From Tubulanus polymorphus (lineage: Eukaryota; Nemertea; Palaeonemertea; Tubulaniformes; Tubulanidae): DNA of 64,000 nucleotides. The notes beneath the pieces were generated by a model. It ran no database searches, was not told the origin of the DNA, and saw only the letters and a program-made list of their open reading frames with translations. Positions within the stretch are counted from its first letter, which is position 1, and each line of letters begins with the position of its first letter. A program made the translations under genes and the position numbers. This document shows positions 12,734 through 61,880 of this stretch, in pieces. The stretch is from positions 19,362,450 through 19,426,449 of the forward strand of contig NC_134029.1 in NCBI RefSeq assembly GCF_964204645.1, given 5' to 3'.

Positions 12734-12840
12734 CGAGAGAAATCCCACAATAAATTCAGCCAAAAATGAAAAGTTCTATATAAAAATGATTATATTTCGA
12801 GCAACGTTTCGGCTTCGGCTTCGATGTGGGATTTCTCTCG
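12734..12840. repeat. Foldback repeat with CGAGAGAAATCCCACA arms
   Basis: A 16-bp arm CGAGAGAAATCCCACA at 12734-12749 is inverted perfectly at 12825-12840. The same arm sequence forms the perfect palindrome at 49355-49414, and the flank reading ACACAATATCCGTGTATGA is shared too, so this is a dispersed foldback family. Confidence 0.75.
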
Positions 12841-41000: not shown

Positions 41001-41020
41001 GCTGAAGTTGAAGATGCCAT
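35028..41020 (-). CDS. POLK: DNA polymerase kappa (Y family)
   Basis: Translesion polymerase that bypasses minor-groove N2-dG adducts. Coding exons: 41020-40894, 40778-40660, 40019-39867, 39402-38877, 38238-38114, 37641-37475, 37351-37222, 37096-36925, 36745-35701, 35133-35028; phases agree, 889 aa (human 870). The N-clasp motif [19 protein letters not shown] is in exon 1. Catalytic acids are in [18 protein letters not shown] (Asp104) and SLDEAYL (Asp195, Glu196). [22 protein letters not shown] and LGLGSTRVE mark palm, thumb and little-finger boundaries. Two UBZ4 ubiquitin-binding fingers lie at about 695-717 (CPVC...HLDAC) and 810-833 (CPIC...HVDGC). The C-terminus TTTIDSFFR resembles the PCNA-binding tail. 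The open frame runs upstream of 41020 without another ATG, and the start falls 26 bp from the edge of the segmental duplication. Confidence 0.95.
40446..40541. mobile_element. MITE, second copy of the GACCCAGTTCCACAGTT family
   Basis: The ends match those of the element at 32855 (left 15 of 17, right 17 of 17 bases), and the interior shares GAGTTAAGATTTGAGTTAAC-like sequence. It lies in POLK intron 2. Confidence 0.75.
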
Positions 41021-41066
41021 ATTTCTTTCTTTTTGATAACTGCCCAAATAATTGTCACTGCCCAAC

Positions 41067-42398
41067 CTACGTGCCTGGCTGGTCTCTAGAGGCTCGGCTC
41101 TGGTCTTGCCCAGTTACACTTACAGCGTTGTTAATTTCAAGAACTCTCTGAAAGATATTTAGATATTTAAAAGAAAATACTTCAATTTGTTCATTTGTCA
41201 TAAATTTTGGTGTGGACAGACAACAAGGGGTTTCACCCAGTCCTGAGAGTGGCCGGTTCGGGGCGCCCCGTATACTAAAGAGCTTGCGTCGATAGCGATA
41301 ATAATAATATATAGGCCTACCAACTGACAGTCTAAGGTTCTCGGCGAACAAGAGGTCCAATAAGGCAATATAATGAATGGTATCCCATGACCATGTAACA
41401 TGACAATTTTTTTGCCTTACACGTCTCTAACAATTAACTAACCACAGCCCCGCCCCGTGTTGGATTTAGATTATGCATTTCGTTGACGGCATTGATCAGT
41501 AGTGGCACCACATAAAACCGGCATATTTCCCTGCCCTGCACCAAACAAAATGCGTAACGTTGTTATCATGGTCGTGCAATAAGTAACCAGTATAGGCCGA
41601 TTTGGTTAAACCTACCCAGTGAGATTCATTTAGGATGTCACCTCGTAATTCCCGGGATTAACAGAATTCTGAGAGTTTTATTTTGGCAATTAGTTCGATT
41701 AGTTAAAATCCCCGACTTTGCAGCGGCGTACTCGCTTCCCTGTGCACGCATCACTCGCTTCCCTGTGTATGCATCCCTCGCTTCCTTGTGAATGCATATA
41801 TCGCTTCTCGGAGCCCGCCTCTCACTTCCCGCACTACATGCAAAATTGGTTCCTTCCTGAATTTCAAGGTTCTTTCTATTACGAACTCCATCGATTGTAG
41901 TTGTGTCAGCAAAAGAACTTGACTGTGGTCCTTCTTTATGTTAAAACTAGAAAATCCCCAAATTTCAGAGTCCTTTTGGAACATCGTGCGCATCCCGTCA
42001 ACAATGCAATAATCAAATTTGGCTCCGCGTCCGTTGAAAATGCTATTGTCCTCGTGAACAAAATTATAGTAGTTGAAAATTCGTCGAAGGCTGATAGATT
42101 CATGTTGTGGCTGTCTTCGGCTGCGACGAATGGACTAATTTTGAGGAATATCTAAGGAAATCTACACTTTTACTTTTGATCATGAAAAAAACGGACAGAA
42201 ATCCTTTCACATTTGCAAGAAATCCATGAAATTTCATGCTTTCGGTACTATTTCCAAGCGTTATTCAAAGAAAATAGAGGATGATAGAGTAAAAGTGCTT
42301 GAGAAAATCAAGATAATTTTGATGATTTACATATAACCGCGAAGTTGAGACTAACTTGAGAGTTGGCACCGAGGATAGCTGCGCTGTATTATATTAAG
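41067..42398. other. Duplicated spacer upstream of the GPCR cassette
   Basis: No gene is supported. Open frames here are kept in both duplicates only because the DNA is nearly identical; a 6-bp difference near 41302 is in frame but sits in a simple ATA run. A block at 41841-41935 (TTCCTTCCT then CTCCATCGATTGTAGTT) resembles 45941-46041, downstream of the GPCR, so it is an older internal repeat. Confidence 0.5.
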
Positions 42399-43316
42399 TG
42401 TCCAGTCATGAGAAACACATTGTGCTCTGGTCTTTCAAATAGTTCAATTTGAATTGAACCAGTTCAGAGGATTAATTCTTAGCATACGTTGAATTCACTA
42501 TACACGCGCATATGCGTATGTTCGGTCCTCGCGCGCGGTTAGGTGAGTTGAATTTAGAAATGTTTTTTTCCCAGAAAGCTACATCATTCAAAGAATTAGT
42601 CGAGTAAATTTAGTTCCACAATTTTAAGAACTGGTTCGCGAGGTTGCCGGTTCATTTCGGGAGTGATCTCACCCGGGCAACTGACCTATAAATATCGATT
42701 CTTCTAGTCGAAATCAAAATTTATACTGTACCAAATCGTTGATTTTTTTCAGATCGGTCATTCCTCACTTTTTCATCATCGGGATCTGATTGCTGCTCGT
42801 ACCGCCAGGCCGACTTAGCCAACTCTTGTGATCGAATTAATCCATGATGCTCCACACAGAAATTGGTGGTGAGTACTTTTCTTGTAACAGAAAATAATGT
42901 ACATGTACATGTGTTAAGTTAACAGTTCTAATAGCGATCGTTGCGGTTCTTTTAGATAAACTCTGTCCAGCAGGACCTGATTGCTTTCAATACATGTTGA
43001 CTTGGCCAACAAACGCATTGTGTGGACCTGATTGCTGCTACTGCATGCTGCGAACTAAAACTAACCTGGCCCAATAAATGACTCCTTTGATCTGAGTACT
43101 GTAGTCTGGACGTTACATCTCCCGAGGAAAATCTCACTAATCGAAATAATCCAAGAAGATGCACTTATAAATCAGTGAGTACATATCTTTCGGTTGTCGG
43201 GTTTAAGCTTATTCAAACAGATGGCCGACCCTCGTTACAGCAAACTCAGATACTGCAGACCCCTAACACTCTTAACTCGAATTAATTTGTGACCAGTGAT
43301 TTGTGTTTGATTTTAG
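42399..43316 (+). promoter_or_regulatory. Promoter/leader cassette A, upstream of GPCR
   Basis: It begins TGTCCAGTCATGAGAAAC. It contains TATAAATA (42687-42694) and then two exon-like blocks with good splice sites: 42753-42868 (acceptor TTTTTTTCAG, donor GTGAGT) and 42956-43174 (acceptor CTTTTAG, donor GTGAGT). A third acceptor (ATTTTAG) is at 43316. The blocks have many stops and so would be untranslated. This reads as a TATA promoter with a spliced 5' leader for the GPCR at 43767. Similar sequence occurs four more times in the window. Confidence 0.55.
42687..42694 (+). promoter_or_regulatory. TATA box in cassette A
   Basis: TATAAATA, preserved at the equivalent site of the two other plus-oriented cassettes and degraded in the two minus-oriented ones. 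Confidence 0.5.
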
Positions 43317-43766
43317 CTACCAAGTCAAATTATATCGACATCTCATTTTACGTTATATACATGTATTAATATTATATAATGCCTTCAATACTGTATTTGA
43401 TTATTCTTTGCTTGAATGACTCCGGGCAGTGTGTAAGTCGTTCCTAGTTCAACCAGTTCGCATCATCAATTCGAGATAAAACCCGGACGACCAGTACTGT
43501 CGATTCGATGACAAATTGTACAGTTTAGCACTCTGAAATATACAACAAACAGTATCGTGAAATGCCATGCGTTTTGTTTTCGTTGTCTGGCTGCTAATAT
43601 CGTCTTGGTGCTTTCTGACCGTAACAATATACATATGTAAGTTCATAGAACCTATATGGTAAGTTATAGATGATTGTTCTAACAATGATTTCATAGTCGA
43701 TTTGCAACCAAGCATGTGGTGAATTTATCCTGGATTTATCGATTCAACTATAATTCAACCGTAGAC

Positions 43767-44819
43767 ATGGTCGTGGTGGTGACGATAATAACAGCTAATA
43801 GCTCGCATCAGTGTCCGCTGCAGCCGTTCGCTCCGATCATTATAACATCCGTGGCAATTTTACCGACAGGAATTTTAGGTGTAATACTGGATGTGATCAC
43901 TGTATTTGTCTATCGTCGCATTGCCAGAGCCCAATCGAACAAAGGCTTTCACTCATCCACTTGGCTCATGCAGCTGTGGGCTGGTTTTGACGCAGTGGCG
44001 CTTTCTACCAGTTATCTGGCTTTCTCACTCCGATACACGGCCGCGCTAGTTACTTATGGCGAACTTGCATTTCACATTCATAAAGGCAATATTTTTCCAC
44101 ATTTCTACTTATCCGCTTCAGCTGGGGTAGGTATGGTGCTCAAGACTACAGAACCATGGATGATCGCGATGCTTACAATTGATAGATTTTTGCACGTTTA
44201 CGATCCGTTCAGAGCCCCACAGTGGACCAGCGAATTCAACTTGTCTTTAAGTTTTGGTTTCATATTATTTTGTTCCGCATTTCAGAGAGTTTTACTATTG
44301 ATGCCTTTTCCTGCATTTAAGCCAATGGACAGTATTGACTTGGTCCCAGTCAGTTGCCCTTACGGATTACCCGGTTATAAAACATTCTTTAGGAGGAATA
44401 ACGTGGAGAAATTTCTATCGAGATTTCGTATAGGTATATACGGTGTATTAATACCCATATCGATCATATCAATGTTCAGTATTGGTATTCTGATTGTAGT
44501 TTCTAAAAGCGCCCTTTCGATTAAACGAAATGTTAGTATTCCTAAATTTCACAATGCCCGAGCAACCGCCGTCGTACTTTCAATTGTGTTTAGCTACCTG
44601 TTACTCAAGGGACCTGCTGCTATGATACATGTCTTTAAGGGTGTCACACCACAGGGTAAAGCCTTTAAAGCCCTATACAAGCGACCGTGGCTTTACGCAT
44701 TTACACGGAACATCGGTTCCTTTACCGGTATCGTCAATTTCATAGTCTTTTCATTTATTAACCCTACATTCAAAAATGAACTCCGGCACATGTTGTACCG
44801 TAACAAGAGGAAAAAATGA
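43767..44819 (+). CDS. Rhodopsin-class GPCR, copy 1
   Basis: An intronless 350-aa seven-helix receptor, probably for a peptide. Start taken at ATG 43767; the frame is open farther 5' but has no other ATG, so an upstream coding exon is possible. Helices are at roughly 24-48, 62-90, 118-145, 159-183, 220-246, 264-290 and 308-332. The end of helix 3 reads TIDRFLHVYDPFRAPQW, a DRY variant with DRF. Helix 7 ends IVNFIVFSFINPTFK, where the usual NPxxY is absent and an NP lies farther on. An N-terminal NSS sequon fits an extracellular N-terminus; the tail ends RNKRKK. A leader cassette lies upstream and a duplicate at 60828 differs at five residues. Subfamily cannot be assigned by eye. Confidence 0.8.
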   Translation: MVVVVTIITANSSHQCPLQPFAPIIITSVAILPTGILGVILDVITVFVYRRIARAQSNKGFHSSTWLMQLWAGFDAVALSTSYLAFSLRYTAALVTYGELAFHIHKGNIFPHFYLSASAGVGMVLKTTEPWMIAMLTIDRFLHVYDPFRAPQWTSEFNLSLSFGFILFCSAFQRVLLLMPFPAFKPMDSIDLVPVSCPYGLPGYKTFFRRNNVEKFLSRFRIGIYGVLIPISIISMFSIGILIVVSKSALSIKRNVSIPKFHNARATAVVLSIVFSYLLLKGPAAMIHVFKGVTPQGKAFKALYKRPWLYAFTRNIGSFTGIVNFIVFSFINPTFKNELRHMLYRNKRKK

Positions 44820-46888
44820 GATAGAAAAATTCAGGGGTTCCTATTTTTCATTGTGAAGAGCTTTCGGATGGGACTAAAAATAGACTCATGTTGTAATTGC
44901 AATTTTGCATTTCTCAATGATAAATGTATTGTTGCTTTTCATTTCGTTCAACAATGAATTACCTATTATATAATAAACAACTATTGTTTATCAATAAGTA
45001 TACAGTATTATTGTCTTAAAGTTCATGAACAGGATTTTGAAATTTACTGTATACCTAACAAGCTCCACGCCCTTGTTAGTTGTCTGTATCCCGGTGGCTG
45101 GTTGCAGGTTTCACCGTCACATATTATCACAAACCACACATACATGTATGGTGTAAGCCCATACGATCATAAAGCATACATCGCCAACGATGCAGACGCT
45201 CCGTAACACGGGTAGTCCTCCGTCACGGACCACCGAGCGAATCTTATACTGTAGTCAGCAACCTGTCTGATGGCGACCTTCATTTGGGGGCATGCTTGGA
45301 TCCCAAATGGTAAAACTCCCCCCGCCCACCAAAAAGACCACATTTCTAATAGCTACAATAATACTGAATCAGAATATATATAGTTTTCCTATGTTTATGA
45401 TTATACACAGCAATAAAGTTGAAAACCGGATAATTATGACCAAAATTAAATCAGTGAAATCTAAGAATTTCTTAATTTATTATTACACGTGGATAGGGAT
45501 TTATAATGTATATATAATGTCCCAGTAGTGTATCTAATTAAAACCTGTTTAAAATCGAGGTAAGGCTTTTAACGATTTCAGTTGTGGTTAGATTTTTAAA
45601 TTGATAGTTCACTGTATAATTGTGACAGCGGTTATTATTGATTTGTCACCAACGGGATCTTTGAATTCCGCTTGAGTGATAGAATGTTTAACAAATCGTC
45701 CAAGAAATAACGAGTCGCAACACACAGAGTTCCTGCCTTCAGAATTACTTTTATTACACGAACTGATCTCAACGATCTAGATGGTTACAGCGGTCTCCCT
45801 TAACCGTTCAAAACAACAAGTATATATAGTTCACTTCTTAATTATCTAATCAATAAACCCATTACCAAAACAGTAAAAATTGTCGTTAGCTCAACCTGCG
45901 TTGGACGAAAAACCATTCAATCTCACTTCAGGCAAGCTGCCCAGAAAATTAGTTCCTTCCTTGAGCGGTTCCAAAAGGTCTCCCTATCACGAATCAGCTC
46001 CATCGATTGTAGTTATCTTGACTGACTGCGGTCCTCCTAAAACCTCCAAATGAGTCACTTTCAGGAAAACCGCCGTCAGTTTGTCCAAAATCACTGATAT
46101 ATTGCTCTGTGGGGATTTTTTTTATTATGAAAATAAAGACATAGGCCTAGCTGGAAAAGCTTTTATTGTGAAATTTCTAAGTGGACCCTGAGCCATTCCA
46201 CCTGATATACGGGTTCCGGAACAACGGCTAAGATACTAGACCAAGCCGCGGCTGTTTGTCAAGGGCCGAAACGTTATGGATTCATTTTTATCAAATGACA
46301 TTCGAATGTGGGACTTTTTCATTTAAAATGTGAATTGCATAATTTTCAAAGCGCATCACCACCGCCAAAAATTCGACTAAAACCCCATTTTTCAATCCAC
46401 GCCATATCTACGTGGCTTCGTGCTGTTTCATTAAATGGGAAATCCGACATTTCTGACATTCCCCGCGGAAATCTACGAACATTTACAGAAAAATATTTCA
46501 ATTAAAATAACCATGTTCAATGGGAATTCCGGAATACTGTTTCCATTACTGTTTCATTATTCCATATAAAATTCATAAACCAGCACAAATTTTACACTGC
46601 TCAAGAATTATAAGTTCATGCCCGGATCCCGAACGCGATTTTATGTACCGCGTATTGCTGAACTTTCAAGCGTTTTAATAAATGCAGCTCATACGGCGGT
46701 TTTTAGCACAATGCAAAATTTGTTCATTCAAATTTTGCCACACGATTTAGAGTTCCCGGTACCTGTATATTGTAAGACAAAAAACGTGATATGTGAAATA
46801 CCTTCCCAAGTGTTGAGTATTCAATTTGTGCGTTTATCAGGCTGGAATGATTGTTTGGCAATAGTAAGCAGATTGAAGCGCTAACTTT
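44820..46888. other. Spacer between convergent GPCR genes
   Basis: Includes the 3' end of the plus-strand GPCR gene (AATAAA-like sites near 44970). Around 45100-45200 lies a fragment with CACAAACCACACATACATG resembling repeats elsewhere. A GGAACAACGGCTAAGATACTAG motif near 46217 matches sequence near 5183. No gene is seen. Confidence 0.45.
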
Positions 46889-47866
46889 TCAAACGAGTTT
46901 CTTCAGGGTGTGGAGAAACTGTTTGTTAACTATACAATACAGAATGAAATTAACGCACGAATCTACGTCACCCGATATATGAGCTATATCAAACGCCACC
47001 TCCCAGATAACCGCATTCGGCAACGCGTAAGAGCGCACTTTCGAAAACGTTTCGGGCATTTCCAACAGAAGAAAAGTTATACTCATCGATATTACCATAC
47101 GAGTGGCTTTAGAATCGCCTTTCAACGTTTGTTGCGAGCCGGTGCCCCCTAATTTCTTTCGTTGTCTAAATTTTACGCATAATGTCGCGATAAGGGCCGT
47201 GTTTACGATGAGAATTATCGCGCTCGGAAATATCAATCTGAAAACGGGATCCAGGAGCTTGTTGCAAAGAAAATATATTTTCGGGTTCTTAGAAGCAATA
47301 CGGTATTGTTGGCCGTAACAGGGATTCGTATAATCTTCTATTTTAACGCTCAATGGAAAATATATAGACCACAAAAAGAACGACAACGTCGCCACGGTGA
47401 TGATACGGTTCATACGCTTTTTTGTCCACCATTGACTGGCTTTTAACGGGAACAGAACGGTCAGAAGTCGTTCTAACTGTATCAGAACTGTCAACCAGTT
47501 GCGTTGGTACATGAATCCGAACCGCAACACGCGCGCTCCGTAGGCGTACATTTTCGGGTAAATGTGGAATGGATCGATAAAAACGTTATCACCGTAATTT
47601 ACGTAAAACAACAAATATCTCAGAGTATCGGCCAGAAAGTGACTCAACAGTAAACTGATATCGGCAATCGCGAGGCATTTTAACAAGTGTATTGAAGGGT
47701 GTGACGATTTCAATCTGGTAAAAATAGCGATGATTAAAGAATTCATAACCAATCCGGTGAGCATAATTTGAGGAAGTACGAATACGTTGATGTAAAATCG
47801 ACCAGACCATTCGTCATACTGCTGGACGCAAGACTCTTCTCGGGTTAGGTTCCGTACTGCGACCAT
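46889..47866 (-). CDS. Rhodopsin-class GPCR, second receptor type
   Basis: An intronless 325-aa receptor opening with ATG at 47866, probably a peptide receptor. The N-terminal NLT sequon (residue 6) suits an extracellular start. Helix 1 is about 24-51 with Asn42 in GLVMNSLII; helix 2 has the classic LAIAD at 65-69; helix 3 ends LERLLTVLFPLKA (ERL in place of DRY). Helix 4 is about 154-172, helix 5 about 208-232, helix 6 about 254-272. Helix 7 ends CVNFILYCIVNKQF, the slot of NPxxY filled by VNFILY. It shares little with the plus-strand GPCR beyond the fold, so it is a different subfamily. The genes point at each other. A second copy begins at the right edge of the window. Confidence 0.85.
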   Translation of the reverse strand: MVAVRNLTREESCVQQYDEWSGRFYINVFVLPQIMLTGLVMNSLIIAIFTRLKSSHPSIHLLKCLAIADISLLLSHFLADTLRYLLFYVNYGDNVFIDPFHIYPKMYAYGARVLRFGFMYQRNWLTVLIQLERLLTVLFPLKASQWWTKKRMNRIITVATLSFFLWSIYFPLSVKIEDYTNPCYGQQYRIASKNPKIYFLCNKLLDPVFRLIFPSAIILIVNTALIATLCVKFRQRKKLGGTGSQQTLKGDSKATRMVISMSITFLLLEMPETFSKVRSYALPNAVIWEVAFDIAHISGDVDSCVNFILYCIVNKQFLHTLKKLV

Positions 47867-49064
47867 CTCGACTGTTTGTTGTTACCACGATAACGTCAGG
47901 ATTTCCACGCTATTTGCGCAGCATTTATTCCCGCATTATTGGCCACACCGGGTGCATTCTTTCTAGTCTAACGGGCGTCGGCTGCCTGGACTCTCATAGT
48001 GGCTGCGATCATCCGAGATCGCGTCGAAAATATTCCGCCGCACGTAAAAACAATCTCGACAATTCAGGCTCAACTTTCGTTAGATTGACGTTTAAAAAGA
48101 CCCGTTCAATAACGGTTAATTTCAGGCAGTTCTTTGCCGAAAGATCGACGAAAACGCTCGCGATTTATAAATGATACACCGAGAATGAGAGAATATTTTT
48201 CTTGCTCACAATCTTCGAACTGGCAGCCTTTCAAAGACTTACTTGTTCAACGGGCTCAATTTTCCTCCATTAGAAGATCGATGAAGTTGCAATTTGATGA
48301 TAGAACGATTGCATCCATTATCAGAACGGGTTACCTCGATCGATCGATGTGTGTTGCGTAAAAACTTAAAACTGCGATATCAACAGTTGAATAAGTGTAT
48401 TCCTAGCCTTGTCATTTATTCGTGATGTACAAAGTTACTAACTGGTTATGTTTTGTTATTGGGCAACATTCCGCCTAGTAATTTTTTAAACTCTAAGCAA
48501 GTTGCTGTGATGGGAATTCTACGAGTTTGTTGGTATGGCTTATGATTCTTTAATTGAATCAGAACCCATTCTTTCGCTCATTATCTTGAATAGTCAGCAC
48601 GCGTCTCGCTAAGGTGTAATCAGTTCAAACGCACGTCTGTAACAGCTGCTTTACCAAATACATTTCACGATAAAAAAAATTGTAAAAAAGTTTCTCGGCA
48701 GAAAGATGCCTAAGATAAAGTCAGCCCCGATAACGCCCACATCGGCGCAGAACGATTTTGGCGGTATAGAGAGTACGGCGGTATATCGGGGTGTTTTACT
48801 ATGTATTTGTATAGAGATGTATGTACATTGAGAAAATCTTACGGTAGGCGGGGGGGGGGGGTGGCTGTGTATGGGAGGGCGGTATATAGGGGGTTGATCG
48901 TATATACTAACCTGCCGAGTTCTGGGTGTTAAATATTTGGGTGGGACTACAGGTAGTCATCGGATTCCGAGATGATTCAACTTGACAGGATTCTAAATTG
49001 ATATTAGTTAAGAATATGCTTAAAGGTTAGAAACAAAATGTACAGGGTCAGTCTGGTATATGTA
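47867..49064. other. Upstream region of the minus-strand GPCR
   Basis: It should hold the promoter of the receptor at 46889-47866. A G-run lies near 48850. Plus-strand open frames around 48134-48361 have no recognisable content. Confidence 0.4.
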
Positions 49065-49354
49065 TTCTAGCTAAAGGCGAGATGTCCTGTCCAATGAACC
49101 GCCGCATTCAAACCAGTTCATATCGTGTCCAGTCATGAGAAACACATTGCGCGCTGGTCTTTTAAATAGTTCGATTTGAATTGAACCAGTTCAGAGGATT
49201 AATTCTTAGCATACGTTGAATTCACTATACTGCGCATATGCGTTTGTTCAGTCCTGGCGCGCGGTTAGGTGAGTTGAATTTAGAATTTTTTTTTTCAGAT
49301 AGCTACATTATTTAAAGAATTAGTTGAGACATTTAGGTCCACAATATCAAGACT

Positions 49355-49414
49355 ATGACGAGAGAAATCCCACAATAACAATGGGCTTTGTTATTGTGGG
49401 ATTTCTCTCGTCAT
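49355..49414. repeat. Perfect 27-bp palindrome
   Basis: ATGACGAGAGAAATCCCACA and seven further bases (49355-49381) are inverted without mismatch at 49388-49414 around a six-base loop. Copies A and D of the cassette lack it, so it inserted into cassette B. Its arms match the foldback at 12734-12840. Confidence 0.9.
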
Positions 49415-49514
49415 CTTCATACACGGATATTGTGTATCTTCACGTCTAATCAAGAACTATGGTTGGCGAAGTTGCCGGTTCATTCCGGGTGTGATCTCAC
49501 ACGCACAACTGACC

Positions 49515-49522
49515 TATAAATA
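49515..49522 (+). promoter_or_regulatory. TATA box in cassette B
   Basis: TATAAATA at the same place as in cassettes A and D. Confidence 0.4.
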
Positions 49523-50500
49523 TCGATTCTTCTAGTCGAAATCAAAATTTACACTGACCTAATCGTTGATTATTTTTTTCAGATCGGCCATTCCTCACTT
49601 TTTCATCATCGGGATCTGATTGCTGTTAATAGCGCCAGGCCGACTAAACCAACCCTTGTGATCGAATCAATCCATAATGCTCCACACAGAAATTGTCGGT
49701 GAGTACATGTGTTGTTTTTTAATCTTGGAGTAATCGTTTAACAAATGATCACTCCAAGATACTGTATGTTACAGACTATAATGTAGTATCAAGTCAAGTT
49801 AACAGTTCTAATGGTGATGGTTGCGGATTTTTCAGATAAGGCCTCCTCTGTCAGCCTGAGTCCAGGACCGGATTGCTTTCAATACATGTTGACCTGGCCA
49901 ACAAACGCATTGTGTGGACCTGATTGCTGCTACGCATGCTGCGAACTAAAACTAACCTGGCCCAATAAATAACTCATTTGATCTCAGTACTGTAGTCTGG
50001 ACGTTACATCTCTCGAGGAAAATCTAACTCATCGAAATAATCCATGAAGCTCCACTTATAAATCAGTGAGTACATATTTTATCTCTTTGTTGCATATGAT
50101 ATTTAGGTTAGGTCGAGTTTAAGGTTATTCAAACAGATGGACCCTCGTTACAACGAACTCGGATACAGTAGGCTTCTAACACTCCTCTTAACTCGAATTA
50201 ATTTGTGACCAGTGATTTGTGTTTGATTTTAGCTGAAAATTCGATAGAATTGAATTAATTGGTATTCTACAGTATAATTGCAATGCTTTCGAAATTTGTT
50301 TGATTCGGCATATACTTTAGCTGATAATTTGACAAACCGAATTGATATTCTATTGTTGCAATGGTTTCGAAATCTGTGTTCAAGATTATTTTTTTCTTAT
50401 GATTCAGCTTTAATGGATAACAATTTGTCGGATAAACCTGATTATGAAAAATTACTTGTAAAACCGGTTCAATCGCCTAAGACATGTATACTTTGTGTGC

Positions 50501-52451
50501 CATAGTTCAGTGACACGCGCTCAATCGTCCAAAAACATATTGTTTGATTCAATTGATTGATTGTATCATTCCTATATTTTTGAAAATACACCTCAAAAGA
50601 TCTTACCGGTTAAGGACGGTTAACCGGTTTCGAGCGAAAATATTTTCTGGACTCGCATGAAGTTCGGGTTTGACTATTTCACTGAATGGCTTCTTATCGT
50701 AACGATTTAAAAATGTACGGATCGGGTTCTCGAAGATTGTGGATACCAGGATGGTTCTGAAAAATTCAAAAGATGTCGCCTTCGCTAATTTACACTTGTC
50801 GTAGAGTTTTCTCAGGAGATTCAGAACTTGGTGGTCACAGGACGGCGCTCCGGCAAAGCGGCGAAATTCATGAAATTACAGACTTTTTACTGACTGGGTT
50901 TTTGCACTTTGCGACCGACGGATGGTCACTCCGTTCACCAGACGTAAAGTCTTGCCACTGCTGTCAGCCTCGCTTAGTTCAACATCTGAGTTATCGCATT
51001 ACAAATATTTCATAATGACAGATTTCACATTCATAGAGTATATATACGCCTCAGCCCTTTTGATAAGACATAAAATGATTCTCCCAATTCCGATAGCAAT
51101 TTTCCTTGTTATCTGAATAAAGACTTGAAATAAAACAACTCTTTTTGACCCTTAGAAACATGATGACATTTGATGAAATCGTTTCTTATTCAATTCTGAA
51201 TAAAGTTTATGGGATTTAGAATTTGTTCTGTGTCAGCTTGTCATTTTGTCTTACCTGCGACAAGTGTAAATTAGAGTCGATCTTTATTCGAACAATTCAG
51301 TCCGATGCTTTAAACTAGTAAACCAGTACAATACAAATCAAATTGTCAAACCCATGGGATTTGTGGTAATGAGTGTCCATCGTATTACGCTTAATGCAGG
51401 CATATCGGTCTTTATCCTGGAACCACTTCCCTTCAAGTGAGTGTGTATGATCGAACAAAATGTATATTGTATTCTCGGGTCAGGTAAGCGATCAAGAAGT
51501 ATGGTGATAACCTACAGAATACCCGAGGGCTAGCAGGGTCCAAGCTGTAGATTGAAACCTGCATTATTTCATATAAGGTTTAGAATCGATTAAAACATGT
51601 TACTATGATACTGTATGTAGTAACTCTGATATTATTGTGAACGGGTCCGTCTAAATCCTATCGACGACAACCACTTTTTAAACGGCAGTTCGTTTCTGGA
51701 AATCCCTACTTTCATTGATCTTCAACATTAGTTTTGAGTCCCACTTCATGCTTTTACAGCACGTACTATCAAGATGACAAGTTGCAATCTGAATGGTCCA
51801 GCTCGCATTTGATTCGACCACGTCCTTTTACGTTTTCCGCGATATCCATTCCAAAACCAATTCATCCACAAAAAATTAAAATAGATAACATTGATAATAA
51901 CAATTCACTTCGACTTTATTGAAAATTTAGCCAACTGGTAAAGTGTATGATCAACAAATTTCATTATAACGCCATCCTTTTTATTGTCGGACACTAACAT
52001 TGATGACGTAGTACACGTCGATTCGCACCCCAATGACTCGTAGTATCAATGCATATTAAAAAATTATTCTAACGATCTTTTCGGAGTAAAAAAAGTCACA
52101 GCGGAAAAGCAGATCGGTTGCTTATAATAATTATGATTTGATAATTTTTTTAAAATTTTTTAATTTTTTTCTATTTCATCTACATAGTAATCTTGAATTT
52201 ACTTGGCTACTCTATTTCTTCTAGACAATCGATTAATTTATTAGAATCCAAGTATTCACAAATATCATATTTACAAAATCACACACGGAAGGTCGGCAAT
52301 TGGAAAAACTTGTGCGTCTTTCAGGTCGTGAACCCGCGATCCCCGGTATTTGGTAACGTACAAAATGCGTAGCCTGAAAATTCAAAAATGAAACATTATG
52401 CAATAGTTGGTTGTGACTGATGGGATTTAGATACGGCCCCTTAAACGCCAA
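50501..52451. other. Spacer without supported gene
   Basis: An 80-codon open frame with an ATG at 50773 ends at 51015 and is unrecognised. The rest is A+T-rich with long A/T runs near 52140-52180. Confidence 0.4.
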
Positions 52452-52647
52452 ATGATTGTTGTATACCGATTATACCAAATGGAAGTAAAACTATGGTCTT
52501 CAATAAAACCTATTGTTTAACTTGTTATTTTGACATTGATGAAGCTAATTTCAATGGTTCAAAAGACCAAACAATAGGTTGATTGAAGACAATTAGTAAC
52601 TAATATGGTTTTACCTCTATTTGGTCTCATCGGTATACAACAATCAT
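52452..52647. mobile_element. Foldback element next to the minisatellite
   Basis: A left arm starting ATGATTGTTGTATACCGAT (52452-52518) is inverted with a few differences and one small insertion at 52569-52647. The arms include CAAATRGARGTAAAAC and CCTATTGTTT. A non-coding foldback or MITE about 100 bp left of the minisatellite. Confidence 0.7.
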
Positions 52648-52751
52648 AGGGTAAGGAACCATTGAAAATACAATTTAACTTATTGTTAGGGCTTTGGCCT
52701 TCAATTTTGTTTCGGAATTTGAACACTTCCGATTGTATAGCCATTAAGTCC

Positions 52752-54061
52752 GACTCCCGACACACCGGCATACTGACATACCGGCACTCCCGACATACTA
52801 ACACTCCCGACATTCCGACACTCGCGACATACCGACACACCGGCACTCCCGGCACACCGGCACTGACGACATACCAGCACTCCCGACATACTGACACTCC
52901 CGGCACTCCCGATATACCGGCCACATCGGCACTCTCGACACACTCGACACTACGGCACTCACGACACTACGGCACTCCAGACACTCTGACACACCGGCAC
53001 TCTCGACACTCCCGACATACTGGTCTTGCCGACACACCTGACACACCGCCACTCCCGACATACCGACACACCGGCACTCCCGACATACCGGTATTCCCGA
53101 CACACCGCCACACCGGCTCTCCCGACATACCAGCACTCCCCACACTCCCGACACACCGACACACTGGCCTCCCCACACACCGGCACTTCCGACATACCCG
53201 CACTCCCGACATACCCGGTACTCTCGACACTCCCGACACTCTCGACACTCCCGACACACCGGCACTCCCGACATACCCGGCACTCTCGACACTCCCGATA
53301 TACAGGCACTCCCGACACACCGACACTCCCGACATTCCGACACTCCCGATATACAGGCACTCCCGACACACCGCCGCTCCCGACACACCGCCGCTCCCGA
53401 CACACCGGCGCTCCCGACACATCAGCGCTCCCGACACACCGGCGCTCCCGACACACCGGCACTCACGACATTACGACGCTACGCCGCTCCCGACACTCCG
53501 ACACACCGCCACTCCCGACACACCGACACTCCCGACACACCGGCACTCACGACATTACGACACTCCCGGCACACCGCCGCTCCCGACACACCACCACTCC
53601 CGACACCGGCACTCCCGACACACCGGCACTCCCGACATTCCGACACTCCGGCACTCACGACATTACGACACTCACGACATTACGGCACTCCCGACACACC
53701 GGCACTCCCGACACACCGGCACTCCCGACACACCGGCACTCACGACACACAGGCACTCCCGACACACAGGCACTCCCGACACACCGGCACTCCCGACATT
53801 ACGACACTCCCGACACACCGGCGCTCCCGACATTCCGACACTCCGGCACTCCCGACATACTGGTCTTGCCGACACTCCCGCCACACCCGACACACCGGCA
53901 CTCACGACATTACGACACTCCCGACACTCCCGACACTCCCGACACTCCCGACACACCGCCACTCCCGGCACACATGACACTCCCGACATACAGGTACTCC
54001 CGACACACCAACACTCCCGACAATCCGGCACTCACGACATACCGACACTCCCGACACATCC
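52752..54061 (+). repeat. 17-bp minisatellite, about 1.3 kb
   Basis: Tandem units close to CACTCCCGACACACCGG, with variants such as CACTCCCGACATACCGA, CACTCACGACATTACGA and shorter CACTCCCGA steps, giving roughly 75 units. The C-rich strand lacks stop codons in any frame because the unit contains none, so long artificial frames arise on both strands (three units equal 51 bp, a 17-residue period). The array is much more G+C-rich than its flanks. Confidence 0.95.
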
Positions 54062-54063
54062 AG

Positions 54064-54365
54064 TATTAAACAAAAACAATTAATCTACTCACCACCAATT
54101 TCTGTGTGATGCATCATATATTTATTCGAAAGGTCTTGGGTCACCAGTGTTGGTATAGTCAGCCTTGCACTATTGGCAGCAATCAGATCCTGATGATGAA
54201 ACAGTGAGGAAGGGCCGATCTGAAAAAATCAACGATTTGATACATTACAAATTTTTATTTCGACTAGAAGAATCACTAATTATGTATAGGTCAGAAATGG
54301 ATCTGCAACTTCACCAAGCAGTTTTTAAATTAATGGACCTAAATGTACTCGATCAATTCTTTAGA
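54064..54365 (-). promoter_or_regulatory. Cassette fragment C', inverted
   Basis: On the minus strand it matches the first exon-like block of the leader cassette (ACACAGAAATTGGTGGTGAG, CTGATTGCTGCCAATA) and its upstream part. The TATA position is mutated. It directly abuts the right end of the minisatellite and lies 480 bp before the CBM20-like gene on the opposite strand. A truncated relic is likely. Confidence 0.5.
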
Positions 54366-54847
54366 TAATACAGCTGATAAGAAACAAAAAAAAAATGATA
54401 GAAAATGAAGAGAAAATATTTCTGAATCAATGAAAACTAGTACCTTATATTTTTCTTTTTAAATAACTGTATAAAACATTTTGTACGAATATACACATCA
54501 ATTCAGGAAATCGTTAAAAGAATTAATTTTTTCTTTCCTGATACTCATATTTATTCTTTTCCGCGCACATCGGAAAACTGTAATATTGATCAATAAGTTG
54601 ATGCTGACAGTATACGGTAGGAAAAAATAATCCTAAACCGCCAATTTGTTTAATTAGAAACTGAGAAATACACGCTCATGGTTCCCGGCTACTGTCGGCA
54701 ATTTCCGTGGTTGGTTACGTTGTAATGATGTCACGAATCAGTTGCCAGGAAGCTGTTGCCGCGTTGCTATGTTAGCATCAGTTTTCACTACACGTGAAAT
54801 CGCTTTTACACGCGCGCTTTTGCTTGCAATTGTTGTTTTACGACAAA

Positions 54848-56433
54848 ATGGAAAATTCAGACGAAATGGTATCTAATTTTGTTGATCGGGTGTTGAGATC
54901 GAGCGTCGAGACGACCCCAAAATATGGTAAAAGCATAACTTTTACAGAAGTTGATTCCTAATTAGATAAATGCAAGTTTTAGAAAATTTTTCTTCATTTT
55001 TTAGATTCCGAAAACGAAAATGTATTCTGCCTCAATGGCGAATTCTACTCTGCGGAAAACATAAGAACACTTCCAGGTAACATATATAAATATGGAAAAT
55101 CCGTTTTCAAATTGAATAAAACTTTTAACTAAACAAACTATAATCTACTTAAATCATACGATAGCCTGAAATTACTATGCTATTCTGTAGGTATTCCAAA
55201 ATCGTTCTGGTTATCAATCCGTCAGAGGTCTGCCGTGATTATGACCCATTATGAGACATCCCCGGGTGAAACAGTTAAAATGTTCGGCAAAACCATCGGT
55301 TGGAGCGATGGCACATTTCTTCAGAGAATCCCGTACAGTAACTGGTGGGAAGGTCACCTGACGGAACAACAACTCAGAACTGAATACAAGCTGGCAGTTG
55401 TGAGTGAAAATGGAGATATAAAGTGGGAGCCGAGAGCTAATCGATTTGTTAAATCGGCGGGAATTTACTTCTGCCAGTGGGGCCAGGCATCCGTGATTGT
55501 CGATGGTAAGTTTTGATCTTGATAACGTATGTTGCAAATAGTTGAACGATAGAAACAGAGTAGGACGTTCCAGTTTTTTTTTCTGTTTAAGACAAGTCGA
55601 ATAATCATCAAACTGCAGGAGGAATAAGAAAATTAACATCGACTGCAGCTCAACGAGACGTTGCCGAAGTGAACGGAATGGGAGCTGTGCAACTAAAACG
55701 CTATTCCGAAGAAAAGCTAGATGTAGAAAAGCATTTAGTTGAACACAAACCAGTGAGACCAGAGAGTGAGCGTTCACTTCCTCGTGAGATAAAAGCTGAA
55801 ATTCATGTCACCGAATACAAAGATGGTAAATCATCTAATGATGCAGAAGAAAGAAATCGCTTAAAAAGAAACGATATCGAAGTACAAATCAACCAACCGA
55901 TTATAGCGATTATACCACCCACATGTGAAATCAAACCAAACATTTCTGGCATCGATTTCGAGGGTGAGTGATTTAAATCGGAATATCTTACACTAAGATT
56001 GAAAATGTCTATGACTGGTTGGTAAATGTTTCATGGTTTTATCATTATTATACAGAACCAATAGATGACAAGAATATGATTACGGAAAAAGTTGACATTG
56101 ATGAAATATCGCTTGATGGAAGAGAGCAGAAGAACATAAAACCAGGGATGGGAGTCGGATTAAAATCTGAAGAACCGACGACAAGATGCGGAAAATCAGA
56201 AACTCGTGGTAAGAGCTTCACTGACTTGCAGATTGAGAAATCCGACTTTGCAGGTGTTGACATAATCCATATTCAATTTGTCAGCTTTTCTGATGAAGTT
56301 TGGAAATTGTAGTAGTCGTCATTCTAAACTAACTATGTATTTATATTCTCTATCTGTAGGAAAAGTGAGGAAATTCGCTAGATATTTACGTCGAGGCTTT
56401 CGCAGATTATTCATATGCAATGCTGGTCGATGA
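54848..56433 (+). CDS. CBM20-like (starch/glycogen-binding fold) protein
   Basis: Six exons: 54848-54926, 55005-55076, 55191-55505, 55592-55963, 56056-56208, 56360-56433. Every intron is phase 1 with GT-AG ends, giving 354 aa. Exon 3 holds the only domain I recognise. Residues about 65-140 follow the CBM20 pattern: GETVKMFGKTIGWSDG, an NWWEG turn, then EYKLAVVSENGDIKWEPRAN, where EYK, WE and NR are the family's hallmark. Tyr/Trp around 102-103 and 129 could line a glucan site. There is no signal peptide, so a cytosolic glycogen-linked role is possible by analogy with laforin or STBD1, but no phosphatase domain or membrane anchor is present. Residues 156-330 are charged and low in hydrophobics; the end (VRKFARYLRRGFRRLF) is a basic amphipathic helix candidate. 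The precise orthologue is unknown. Confidence 0.7.
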
Positions 56434-56537
56434 AATTGATATCAACTTCATCATGTATATACTCTGAATGTGATGATTCGTAACTACCAATACCTCCGCC
56501 TGAGTCTCATATATTTGTTAATACGACCTATGCCGCC

Positions 56538-56543
56538 AATAAA
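56538..56543 (+). promoter_or_regulatory. Poly(A) signal of the CBM20-like gene
   Basis: AATAAA 105 bp past the stop codon, with no competing signal closer. Confidence 0.6.
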
Positions 56544-56754
56544 TGTTATTTCTTCAAAAAGTCTTTTAACAGAGATTTTCGTTACTTGTCCACCTGTAGG
56601 GAACTATAGTGATCTTCAGTGACGCGTTAGAAGCCACCAAGGGGTACATACAATAGGAATGTTTATGCAGGATTTATGGGTACTTCAATTTCATCAGAAC
56701 TTCAGCGTGTGTAATTGAACTTTGGCACACCAAGTATAAATATAGTAAAATTAT

Positions 56755-58030
56755 ACACGATTGAACCGGTTACAAGCGGGTTACAAGTCGGTTTTACGAG
56801 TAAAATTTCATAATCAAGTTCAGGGAATAAATAAAAATACCTTGCTTTATCCGATACATTTTTATCAATTAGAACTCTTATCTCTCACCTTACCTCAAAT
56901 TCTTTAAAGCCGAATTATCAAAAAAACCTTGACCACAGAATTCGAAAGCATTGCGACAATAGAATATCAATTCAATTTAGTTTAACTCGAATTATCAGCC
57001 AAAATCAAACACAAATCACTGGACATCATAAATTAATTTGAGCTAAGATGACTGTTAGGATCAGTCTGTATCTGAGTTCGTTGTAACGAGGGTCCATCTG
57101 TTTAAATAAGCTTAAACCCGACCTAACCTAAATTTCCTATGCAACAAAGTGTCAAGATATGTACTCACTAATTTAAAAGTGGAGCTTCGTGGATTATTTC
57201 GATTAGTTATCTTTTCCTCGGAACATCCAGACTACAATACTCCGATCAGTTTAGTAAAATCGCAGCAATTGGCAGCAATCAGGTCCTGAGGAAATGAGGA
57301 AGGTCTGACGTTCACAATGCATTTGTTGGTTAAGTCAGCACGTTTCGAAGTCAGCATGGCAATCAGGCTGGAGAAGAAGGGTTTTTCTGAAAAAAAAACC
57401 CGCAACGATCACCATCGGAACTGTTAACTTAACTCGATACATGTACATCATAGTCTGTAACATCCATAAAACAAAAAATAATCTACTCACCACCAATTTC
57501 TGTGTGGAGCATCGTGGATTAATTCGAAAGGTCTTGGGTCACCAGTGTTGGTTTCGTCAGCCTGGCGCTATTGGCAGCAATCAGATCCTGATGATGAAAA
57601 AGTGAGGAAGGGCCAATCTGAACAAAATCAACGATTTGATACATTACAAATTTTGATTTCGACTAGATGAATCAATATTTCATGTGTAGATCAGTGTTGT
57701 GCGGGTGAGATCACTCCCGAAATGAACAGGCAACTTCGCCAACCAGTTGTTGAAATTCTGGACCTAAATGTACTCAATCAACATTTCTTTATAGCAATCT
57801 GAGTTTTTTAAAAAGTCTAAATTCAACTCACCTAACCGCGCGCGAGGACTGAACATACGCATATGCGCGTGTATAGTGAATTCAGCGTATGCAAAGAATT
57901 AATCCTCTGAACTGGTTCAATTCAAATTGAACTATTTGAAAGACCAGCGCACAATATGTTTCTCATGACTGGACACAATATGAACCGGTTTTGTCACAAT
58001 GCGGCTCATTGGACAGGACATCTCGCACTA
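56755..58030 (-). promoter_or_regulatory. Promoter/leader cassette C, inverted
   Basis: On the minus strand it follows cassette B closely, including the outer parts that A and D lack (ATTGGACAGGACATCTCG near 58010, and the block with GATTATGAAATTTTACTCGT near 56800). The TATA position reads as a mutated sequence, though splice-flanked blocks remain. With B it forms an inverted pair around 50.5-56.75 kb. Confidence 0.5.
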
Positions 58031-59401
58031 GTTAGAATATATATAATAAATAATTGTCACTGCCCAACCTACGTGCCTGGCTGGTCTCTAGAGGCTCGGC
58101 TCTGGTCTTGCCCAGTTACACTTACAGCGTTGTTAATTTCAAGAACTCTCTGAAAGATATTTAGATATTTAAAAGAAAATACTTCAATTTGTTCATTTGT
58201 CATAAATTTTGGTGTGGACAGACAACAAGGGGTTTCACCCAGTCCTGAGAGTGGCCGGTTCGGGGCGCCCCGTATACTAAAGAGCTTGCGTCGATAGCGA
58301 TAATATATAGGCCTACCAACTGACAGTCTAAGGTTCTCGGCGAACAAGAGGTCCAATAAGGCAATATAATGAATGGTATCCCATGACCATGTAACATGAC
58401 AATTTTTTTGCCTTACACGTCTCTAACAATTAACTAACCACAGCCCCGCCCCGTGTTGGATTTAGATTATGCATTTCGTTGACGGAATTGAACAGTAGTG
58501 GCACCACATAAAACCGGCATATTTCCCTGCCCTGCACCAAACAAAATGCGTAACGTTGTTATCATGGTCGTGCAATAAGTAACCAGTATAGGCCGATTTG
58601 GTTAAACCTACCCAGTGAGATTCATTTAGGATGTCACCTCGTAATTCCCGGGATTAACAGAATTCTGAGAGTTTTATTTTGGCAATTAGTTCGATTAGTT
58701 AAAATCCCCGACTTTGCAGCGGCGTACTCGCTTCCCTGTGCACGCATCACTCGCTTCCCTGTGTATGCATCCCTCGCTTCCTTGTGAATGCATCTATCGC
58801 TTCTCGGAGCCCGCCTCTCACTTCCCGCACTACATGCAAAATTGGTTCCTTCCTGAATTTCAAGGTTCTTTCTATTACGAACTCCATCGATTGTAGTTGT
58901 GTCAGCAAAAGATCTTGACTGTGGTCCTTTATGTTAAAACTAGAAAATCCCCAAATTTCAGAGTCCTTTTGGAACATCGTGCGCATCCCGTCAACAATGC
59001 AATAATCAAATTTGGCTCCGCGTCCGTTGAAAATGCTATTGTCCTCGTGAACAAAATTAAAGTAGTTGAAAATTGATTGCAAAACTCGTCGAAGGCTGAT
59101 AAGATTCATGTTGTGGCTGTCTTCTGCTGCGACGAATGGACTAATTTTGAGGAATATCTAAGGAAATCTACACTTTTACTTTTGATCATAAAAAAAACGG
59201 ACAGAAATCCTTTCACATTTGCAAGAAATCCATGAAATTTCATGCTTTCGGTACTATTTCCAAGCGTTATTCAAAGAAAATAGAGGATGATAGAGTAAAA
59301 GTGCTTGAGAAAATCAAGATAATTTTGATGATTTACATATAACCGCGAAGTTGAGACTAACTTGAGAGTTGGCACCGAGGATAGCTGCGCTGTATTATAT
59401 T

Positions 59402-60377
59402 GTGTCCAGTCATGAGAAACACATTGTGCTCTGGTCTTTCAAATAGTTCAATTTGAATTGAACCAGTTCAGAGGATTAATTCTTAGCATACGTTGAATTC
59501 ACTATACACGCGCATATGCGTATGTTCGGTCCTCGCGCGCGGTTAGGTGAGTTGAATTTAGAAATGTTTTTTTCCCAGAAAGCTACATCATTCAAAGAAT
59601 TAGTCGAGTAAATTTAGTTCCACAATTTTAAGAACTGGTTCGCGAGGTTGCCGGTTCATTTAGGGAGTGATCTCACCCGGGCAACTGACCTATAAATATC
59701 GATTCTTCTAGTCGAAATCAAAATTTATACTGTACCAAATCGTTGATTTTTTTCAGATCGGTCATTCCTCACTTTTTCATCATCGGGATCTGATTGCTGC
59801 TCGTACCACCAGGCCGACTTAGCCAACTCTTGTGATCGAATTAATCCATGATGCTCCACACAGAAATTGGTGGTGAGTACTTTTCTTGTTGTTTAATAAT
59901 CTTTGAGTAATCGTTTGACAAAATGATTACTCCAGATTCAATATTGTATGTAACAGAGAATAATGTACATGTACATGTGTTAAGTTAACAGTTCTAATAG
60001 CGATCGTTGCGGTTCTTTTAGATAAACTCTGTCCAGCAGGACCTGATTGCTTTCAATACATGTTGACTTGGCCAACAAACGCATTGTGTGGACCTGATTG
60101 CTGCTACTGCATGCTGCGAACTAAAACTAACCTGGCCCAATAAATGACTCCTTTGATCTGAGTACTGTAGTCTGGACGTTACATCTCCCGAGGAAAATCT
60201 CACTAATCGAAATAATCCAAGAAGATGCACTTATAAATCAGTGAGTACATATCTTTCGGTTGTCGGGTTTAGGCTTATTCAAACAGATGGCCGACCCTCG
60301 TTAAACTCAGATACTGCAGACCCCTAACACTCTTAACTCGAATTAATTTGTGACCAGTGATTTGTGTTTGATTTTAG
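59402..60377 (+). promoter_or_regulatory. Promoter/leader cassette D, upstream of duplicate GPCR
   Basis: Counterpart of cassette A in duplication copy 2, with TATAAATA at 59691-59698 and all splice-like sites intact. It keeps the 62-bp intron segment that cassette B also has, so copy 1 is the one with the deletion. Confidence 0.55.
59691..59698 (+). promoter_or_regulatory. TATA box in cassette D
   Basis: TATAAATA, identical in setting to cassette A. Confidence 0.5.
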
Positions 60378-60827
60378 CTACCAAGTCAAATTATATCGAC
60401 ATCTCATTTTACGTTATATACATGTATTAATATTATATAATGCCTTCAATACTGTATTTGATTATTCTTTGCTTGAATGACTCCGGGCAGTGTATAAGTC
60501 GTTCCTAGTTCAACCAGTTCGCATCAATATTTCGAGATAAAACCCGGACGACCAGTACTGTCGATTCGATGACAAATTGTACAGTTTAGCACTCTGAAAT
60601 ATACAACAAACAGTATCGTGAAATGCCATGCGTTTTGTTTTCGTTGTCTGGCTGCTAATATCGTCTTGGTGCTTTCTGACCGTAACAATATACATATGTA
60701 AGTTCATAGAACCTATATGGTAAGTTATAGATGATTGTTCTAACAATGATTTCATAGTCGATTTGCAACCAAGCATGTGGTGAATTTATCCTGGATTTAT
60801 CGATTCAACTATAATTCAACCGTAGAC

Positions 60828-61880
60828 ATGGCCGTGGTGGTGACGATAATAACAGCTAATAGCTCGCATCAGTGTCCGCTGCAGCCGTTCGCTCCGATCA
60901 TTATAACATCCGTGGCAATTTTACCGACAGGAATTTTAGGTGTAATACTGGATGTGATCACTGTATTTGTCTATCGTCGCATTGCCAGAGCCCAATCGAA
61001 CAAAGGCTTTCACTCATCCACTTGGCTCATGCAGCTGTGGGCTGGTTTTGACGCAGTGGCGCTTTCTACCAGTTATCTGGCTTTCTCACTCCGATACACG
61101 GCCGCGCTAGTTACTTATGGTGAACTTGCATTTCACATTCATAAAGGCAATATTTTTCCACATTTCTACTTATCCGCTTCAGCTGGGGTAGGTATGGTGC
61201 TCAAGACTACAGAACCATGGATAATCGCGATGCTTACAATTGATAGATTTTTGCACGTTTACGATCCGTTCAGAGCCCCACAGTGGACCAGCGAATTCAA
61301 CTTGTCTTTAAGTTTCGGTTTCATATTATTTTGTTCCGCATTTCAGAGAGTTTTACTATTGATGCCTTTTCCTGCATTTAAGCCAATGGACAGTATTGAC
61401 TTGGTCCCAGTCAGTTGCCCTTACGGATTACCCGGTTATAAAACATTCTTTAGGAGGAATAACGTGGAGAAATTTCTATCGAGATTTCGTATAGGTATAT
61501 ACGGTGTATTAATACCCATATCGATCATATCAATGTTCAGTATTGGTATTCTGATTGTAGTTTCTAAAAGCGCCCTTTCGATTAAACGAAATGTTAGTAT
61601 TCCTAAATTTCACAATGCCCGAGCAACCGCCGTCGTACTTTTAATTGTGTTTAGCTACCTGTTACTCAAGGGACCTGCTGCTATGATACATGTCTATCAG
61701 GGTGTCACACCACAGGGTAAAGCCTTTAAAGCCCTATACAAGCGACCGTGGCTTTACGCATTTACACGGAACATCGGTTCCTTTACCGGTATCGTCAATT
61801 TCATAGTCTTTTCATTCATTAACCCTACATTCAAAAATGAACTCCGGCACATGTTGTACCGTAACAAGAGGAAAAAATGA
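60828..61880 (+). CDS. Rhodopsin-class GPCR, copy 2
   Basis: Duplicate of the receptor at 43767-44819, intronless and 350 aa from ATG 60828. It differs at five residues: V2A, M132I (helix 3), S272L and F290Y (helix 6) and K291Q at the extracellular end of helix 6. The frame is intact and most base changes between the copies are silent or conservative, so both copies are probably functional or very young. Helix 3 DRF and the missing NPxxY are shared. Confidence 0.8.
   Translation: MAVVVTIITANSSHQCPLQPFAPIIITSVAILPTGILGVILDVITVFVYRRIARAQSNKGFHSSTWLMQLWAGFDAVALSTSYLAFSLRYTAALVTYGELAFHIHKGNIFPHFYLSASAGVGMVLKTTEPWIIAMLTIDRFLHVYDPFRAPQWTSEFNLSLSFGFILFCSAFQRVLLLMPFPAFKPMDSIDLVPVSCPYGLPGYKTFFRRNNVEKFLSRFRIGIYGVLIPISIISMFSIGILIVVSKSALSIKRNVSIPKFHNARATAVVLLIVFSYLLLKGPAAMIHVYQGVTPQGKAFKALYKRPWLYAFTRNIGSFTGIVNFIVFSFINPTFKNELRHMLYRNKRKK

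Follow-up and report, generated by a model that had tools for sequence, protein, structure and literature searches.

What is the sequence block that recurs five times within 64,000 nucleotides of the Tubulanus polymorphus genome, each time with segments that look like exons? This stretch, the window hereafter (C5:19362450-19426449 in an assembly of 267.8 Mb and 77 contigs), was described in an earlier note as holding a TATA promoter plus spliced leader, a repeated cassette that would feed G protein-coupled receptor (GPCR) genes and might form a non-coding RNA family. This first observation was mostly right but underestimated the extent of the cassette, which includes a further segment (block a) upstream of the TATA-like site and shows homology up to about position 51020. 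Judged from the genome sequence, we favour, with evenly balanced confidence, the reading that the cassette is a family of at least 63 spliced non-coding units that resemble long non-coding RNA (lncRNA) genes and were spread by duplication. The copies in the window, named by their position in kb, and their parts are as follows.

42398..43318, plus strand: cassette copy W42, 3'-truncated, with a GPCR reading frame 0.45 kb downstream
42753..42868, plus strand: exon b of W42, with AG before and GTGAGTA after
42956..43174, plus strand: exon c of W42
49060..51020, plus strand: cassette copy W49, more complete than any other in the window
49160..49268, plus strand: block a of W49, promoter- or first-exon-like, ending in GGTTAG/GTGAGT
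49515..49522, plus strand: TATAAATA in W49, between block a and exon b, unconserved in the family
49583..49698, plus strand: exon b of W49
49836..50065, plus strand: exon c of W49
50600..51030, plus strand: conserved block further downstream (query range); matching sequence on C5, C6, C8, C9, C11 and C22
54072..54294, minus strand: cassette copy W54 (BLAST extent; the multi-copy alignment suggests about 54390), adjoining a 17-bp satellite array
54093..54219, minus strand: exon b of W54
56701..58042, minus strand: cassette copy W57
57491..57617, minus strand: exon b of W57
57169..57386, minus strand: exon c of W57
59397..60379, plus strand: cassette copy W59, tandem duplicate of W42

Conserved splice signals without a kept reading frame

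We aligned 19 copies and ranked 8-base windows by conservation, using subsets of 15 and 13 copies. With 15 copies, the exon b donor (GGTGAGTA, 49698) ranks first and the exon b acceptor (TTTCAGAT, 49577) second, and the splice signals of exon c take the 11th and 12th places. Among 13 divergent copies (962 windows), donor and acceptor reach percentiles of 99.9 and 99.7 for exon b and of 97.0 and 93.6 for exon c, and the mean conservation of the four signals was reached by none of 200,000 random quadruples; these values are a ranking and not an exact probability, as the windows overlap and the copies are related, which takes some weight from our reading. In the raw sequences, the exon b acceptor AG keeps its aligned position in 15 of 16 copies, lying five bases earlier in the remaining one (L050), and the donor GT is likewise found in 15 of 16, the copy without it (L023) having no exon end, while acceptor and donor are both present in all 13 copies with a full exon c. 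Exon b measures 93-127 bases in 15 of the 16 copies and exon c 191-315 bases in 13. The mean pairwise identity is 0.72 for exon b and 0.64 for exon c, compared with 0.53-0.59 upstream and about 0.55-0.65 between the blocks. The description of exon-like blocks with conserved acceptors and donors is therefore confirmed, with the signals of exon b at the top and those of exon c near the top of the 13-copy ranking.

The absence of a coding frame is also borne out. Stop codons occur in 40 of 48 exon b frames and in 40 of 42 exon c frames, and the eight stop-free frames of exon b are not shared but differ in frame. As reading frames are not kept, the cassette is non-coding. A cysteine-rich peptide was rejected as a candidate product, since the GPDC frame that two C5 copies show in exon c, as read by eye, is interrupted in other copies by stops or frameshifts. 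Both exons are built from related modules (TTCCTCAC...GGACCTGATTGCTG...ACTAAACCAAC) and have a similar 3' edge before GTGAGTA; the module period is 77 in L048 and 85 in L044, neither being a multiple of three, and no module array was called by Tandem Repeats Finder in L037. Downstream of exon c, a further conserved stretch (50135-50200) contains GACCCTCGTTACAACGAACTCGGATACAGTAG and presumably resembles the end of a pogo/Tigger-type transposon, for which it is a candidate only.

A tandem duplication and a clustered family

A unit of 17,002 bp (41046-58047, plus strand) is duplicated head to tail, with the junction at 58047/58048 and the second unit running past the window end. The two units are 97-99% alike over most of their length and 89-96% over 51096-54544, and beyond the window the second one holds further cassette copies (C5 19428564, 19433264 and 19436098-19437204). 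Because of this duplication, W42 and W59 are one copy seen twice. All five blocks are real, with aligned cassette pieces 73-97% alike among them and 98-100% between W42 and W59, but they do not represent five separate copies. In consequence, the two TATAAATA-bearing copies that had been noted to precede a GPCR indeed do so, as a single event doubled by the tandem duplication. Beside W54 ends a 17-bp satellite of about 80 units (52753-54056; ACTCCCGACATACCGGC), which is strongly GC-skewed. Immediately 5' of a C9 copy (L040 2746-3797), there is a 17-bp array of different sequence (AATGAGCTAGGTCTGGG).

Merged searches with the whole block, exon c and the downstream block yielded 63 or more copies, whole or partial, from eight contigs (C9 34, C6 8, C5 7, C8 5, C3 4, C12 2, C22 2 and C11 1), all counts being lower bounds with 40 of 719, 40 of 81 and 40 of 51 candidates scored, respectively. 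Copies on contigs other than C5 show 65-84% identity. Some copies spread as parts of larger duplicated stretches, both on C5 and on C9: nine fetched copies on C9 and C22 are embedded in a unit, 9 kb or longer, whose occurrences are mostly 91-98% alike, and L037, L039 and L044 are less alike than these nine. A 1.5-kb flank of this unit, outside the cassette, has long matches at eight places on C9 and one on C22 and on no other contig among the 40 of 1,461 candidates scored; in the same set, a 340-bp repeat nested in the flank occurs on C1-C8 and C10, and outside this repeat there is one 60-base match on C8. Since the long flank matches are confined to C9 and C22, the C9 unit spread by regional duplication. 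On C3, two cassette pairs (22314318-22445078) resemble the arms of a 130-kb inverted duplication.

Of the proposed mobile or duplicated unit, the duplicated part stands, whereas the cassette is not like an ordinary dispersed transposon. Instead of hundreds of random copies and the genome-wide dispersal expected of a DNA transposon, we found clustered copies and a regional C9 unit, and target-site duplications were not seen, although no systematic search for them was made. No family of this kind was found in the literature searched.

Block a rather than the TATA-like site as a possible promoter

The presumed TATA box, TATAAATA, had been described as surviving in the plus-oriented copies and mutated in the minus-oriented ones. 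Indeed, it is present in all three plus copies (42687, 49515 and 59691) and in neither minus copy. Among the 19 aligned copies, however, only W42, W49, W59 and W66 carry it, all from one C5 subgroup, and W57, W54 and the copies on C3, C6 and C9 have other letters at this place. As the site is confined to this subgroup, it looks gained there and not lost in the minus copies, so that the proposed direction of change is probably reversed. Its conservation reaches only the 40th percentile (13 copies), and its excess in the window is modest (11 occurrences, compared with a shuffle mean of 6.0; 3 of 100 shuffles reach 11). We therefore rejected a TATA box as the shared promoter of the family.

A better candidate for a promoter or first exon is block a, with 60 invariant columns over nine aligned copies (three from C5, two from C3 and four from C9). 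It was found on C3, C5, C8, C9, C12 and C22, all of them cassette-bearing contigs (40 of 50 candidates scored), and some of its places lie away from listed copies (C8 3.40 and 3.77 Mb, C12 8.41 Mb and several on C9). In the anatomy that we propose, block a would act as promoter or as first exon with a GTGAGT donor, followed by exons b and c; the family would be transcribed and spliced, and selection may keep the RNA or the act of splicing, by analogy to repeat-exon lncRNAs.

Receptor genes are neighbours of the cassette

Two types of receptor frame accompany the cassette in the window.

43767..44819, plus strand: GPCR reading frame (Pfam 7tm_1), 3' of W42, with a duplicate at 60828-61880
46889..47866, minus strand: GPCR reading frame (Pfam 7TM_GPCR_Srw), 5' of W49, divergent

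Besides the short distance between W42 (or W59) and the receptor that follows, the idea of a promoter and spliced 5' leader for receptor genes gains from the GPCR frames within 5 kb of six of the nine distinct copies with fetched flanks (window, L033, L037, L039, L044 and L048); none was found within this distance at L034, L050 or the nine amplified C9/C22 units, which were counted as one. However, the position and strand of the receptors vary, and a fixed orientation 5' of related receptors was not observed: at L033, L037, L039, L048, W49 and for one L044 frame, the receptor lies 5' of block a and not 3' of the exons. The relatives of the receptors also argue against a leader. The earlier note had suggested looking for the cassette before other GPCR genes, and the 43.8-kb receptor has 14 other matches at E up to 1e-50 (66-86%), none of them at listed copies. 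The closest are on C11 at 2.19 and 2.70-2.72 Mb (80-86%) and on C5 at 17.26 Mb (77%), and relatives on C1 at 23.2-23.3 Mb reach 66-72% for long matches. Likewise, relatives of the 47-kb receptor (62-77%) on C7, C2, C10 and C12 and on distant parts of C9 do not stand at listed copies; the copy lists used in both comparisons are lower bounds. For one 86% relative on C11, 1,477 upstream bases were read and contained no cassette (best cassette match E 0.1), and only about the last 50 bases, beside the ATG, match the upstream region in the window above chance. Since a close relative of the 43.8-kb receptor thus stands elsewhere without the cassette, the receptors are, as far as genomic positions tell, neighbours and not leader targets, and we hold a cassette feeding receptor genes to be very improbable. 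A signal-peptide exon between W42 and its receptor frame was considered by eye only and was rejected, as the frames did not join. At C11 2.70-2.72 Mb, seven relatives (80-86%) of the 43.8-kb receptor form a cluster.

The proximity to GPCRs is at most a neighbourhood effect. Two PF00001 loci, both on C8, lie within 6 kb of a listed copy, where 0.31 are expected (P 0.04; 147 of 2,664 candidates scored; the distance was chosen after looking). A test of the flanks, counting six of eight near a GPCR, gave P 1.7e-5, or 0.005 at three times the density, whereas the correct count is six of nine; as the receptor queries came partly from the same flanks, this test serves as a lead only. It would be a long shot to suppose that non-coding RNA genes with repeat-module exons, often in facing pairs, keep near chemoreceptor-like GPCRs on several chromosomes and regulate those neighbourhoods, for example via long double-stranded RNA or local chromatin for receptor choice.

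Comparison with known RNAs

Spliced leader RNA genes are short stand-alone units with a GT donor and have no 3' exons in cis. Like them, the cassette has a short block with a GT donor at its end, but exons b and c with their acceptors follow in cis, and Rfam returned no family at the gathering score across the whole window. For these reasons, we dropped the spliced leader of the earlier note. All six Rfam matches within 41000-61000 stayed below threshold, five of them falling at a palindrome (within 49314-49435), and a known RNA family was rejected on this basis. The palindrome (49349-49422) is an insertion in W49 and its duplicate that resembles a miniature inverted-repeat transposable element (MITE), with 91-97% matches on C1, C8, C10 and at window 12697-12753; the weak Rfam microRNA matches arise from its hairpin.

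A closer likeness is offered by repeat-exon lncRNAs such as FIRRE, which is one locus in mammals and whose exons carry a repeat module. For FIRRE, exon identity is reported to be low and one splice site to be conserved (PMC4739325). To this extent, the cassette is similar in its repeated exon module, its diverging exon sequence and its kept splice site. In contrast to the single FIRRE locus, at least 63 cassette copies occur in clusters, their transcription being presumed, and the likeness is one of description.

Weighing the explanations

The conserved splice signals and the missing frame agree with the non-coding RNA family that the earlier note considered possible, transcription being presumed. 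Several points weigh against our reading. Conservation in exon c does not exceed that of the intron separating it from exon b (0.640 and 0.648), and the region 50080-50230, after exon c, nearly equals exon b (0.706 and 0.719). The block a donor reaches a percentile of only 24.0 in the 13-copy set, as some copies lack it, and block a itself is weak or missing in the C6 and C12 copies and one C8 copy. The consensus folds were not counted as support for a structured RNA: that of exon b has -3.3 kcal/mol, 5 of 10 pairs preserved despite two-sided changes in some copy and a covariation term of +0.08, and that of block a has -14.7 kcal/mol with 1 of 25 pairs preserved in this way. Finally, an ancestral mobile element could have passed on the conserved splice signals. 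Such an element, old and of low copy number, with spliced non-coding exons in its 5' part, facing copies as long terminal inverted repeats and later local duplication of some insertions, is a serious possibility, though we consider it doubtful. MITEs and other inverted-repeat DNA transposons form inverted pairs and have copies on several chromosomes, and the cassette resembles them in both respects: it occurs beyond C5 in diverged form, and neighbouring copies no more than 15 kb apart make 31 pairs, of which 21 are convergent, 9 tandem and 1 divergent. As most C9 pairs duplicate one pair, duplicated units were counted once by hand, which leaves nine convergent and one divergent independent pairs. 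In addition, the C3 arms match inverted over 928 bp at 75%. However, an inverted duplication would give facing pairs just as an inverted-repeat element would, and places with block a only add divergent pairs on C9. The two arms of a pair differ roughly as much as arms taken from separate pairs (71% alike on C9 where measured, although the C9/C22 units are alike between places), and plus and minus copies of C5 form one clade in the exon c tree (support 0.908), so that the C5 pairs arose locally. The left edges vary between comparisons (49002, 49057 and 49084), and together with the regional spread of the C9 unit this is unlike an inverted-repeat transposon. A shared gene between facing copies was not found, the C6 and C8 interiors not having been fetched whole: the CBM20-like frame between the facing copies of the window has no match inside other listed pairs.

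An improbable alternative is that the copies are relics of untranslated 5' exons of one protein gene that were copied without the coding part and are drifting. Non-coding exons with good splice signals and the many partial copies fit such relics, but drift alone would not hold the splice signals above the rest, and a partial look at the open reading frame lists and the downstream block (10 rows aligned) made no shared coding exon apparent on the 3' side. Should the family of spliced non-coding units be transcribed, it would offer a natural series of dozens of paralogous non-coding genes within a single genome, where the constraint acting on splicing could be told apart from that acting on sequence. 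Should the family instead be the relic of an element, it would show how a promoter cassette can be mimicked and how a tandem duplication doubled a single receptor link.

Further observations

DIRS-like tyrosine-recombinase retrotransposons came into view because L048 is followed by a frame of such look. The frame at L048 1-1700 is abundant and retroelement-like, with 982-aa open frames at many places, and it looks like a tyrosine recombinase; the parts scanned had no meaningful Pfam match. With 150 of 286 candidates scored, the part of the frame from about residue 67 onward has matches throughout the genome, whereas residues 1-72 match only C9 cassette places. The frame is thus an abundant repeat fused to a cassette block, and a DIRS element was rejected as the origin of the cassette. 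The CBM20-like frame (55133-56312; Pfam match below the cut-off) has nine relatives of 89-91% at C5 7.30-7.33 Mb. Elsewhere in the window, 38857-39489 and 32438-32716 are fragments of a Y-family DNA polymerase (Pfam IMS) and a 5-formyltetrahydrofolate cyclo-ligase, respectively.

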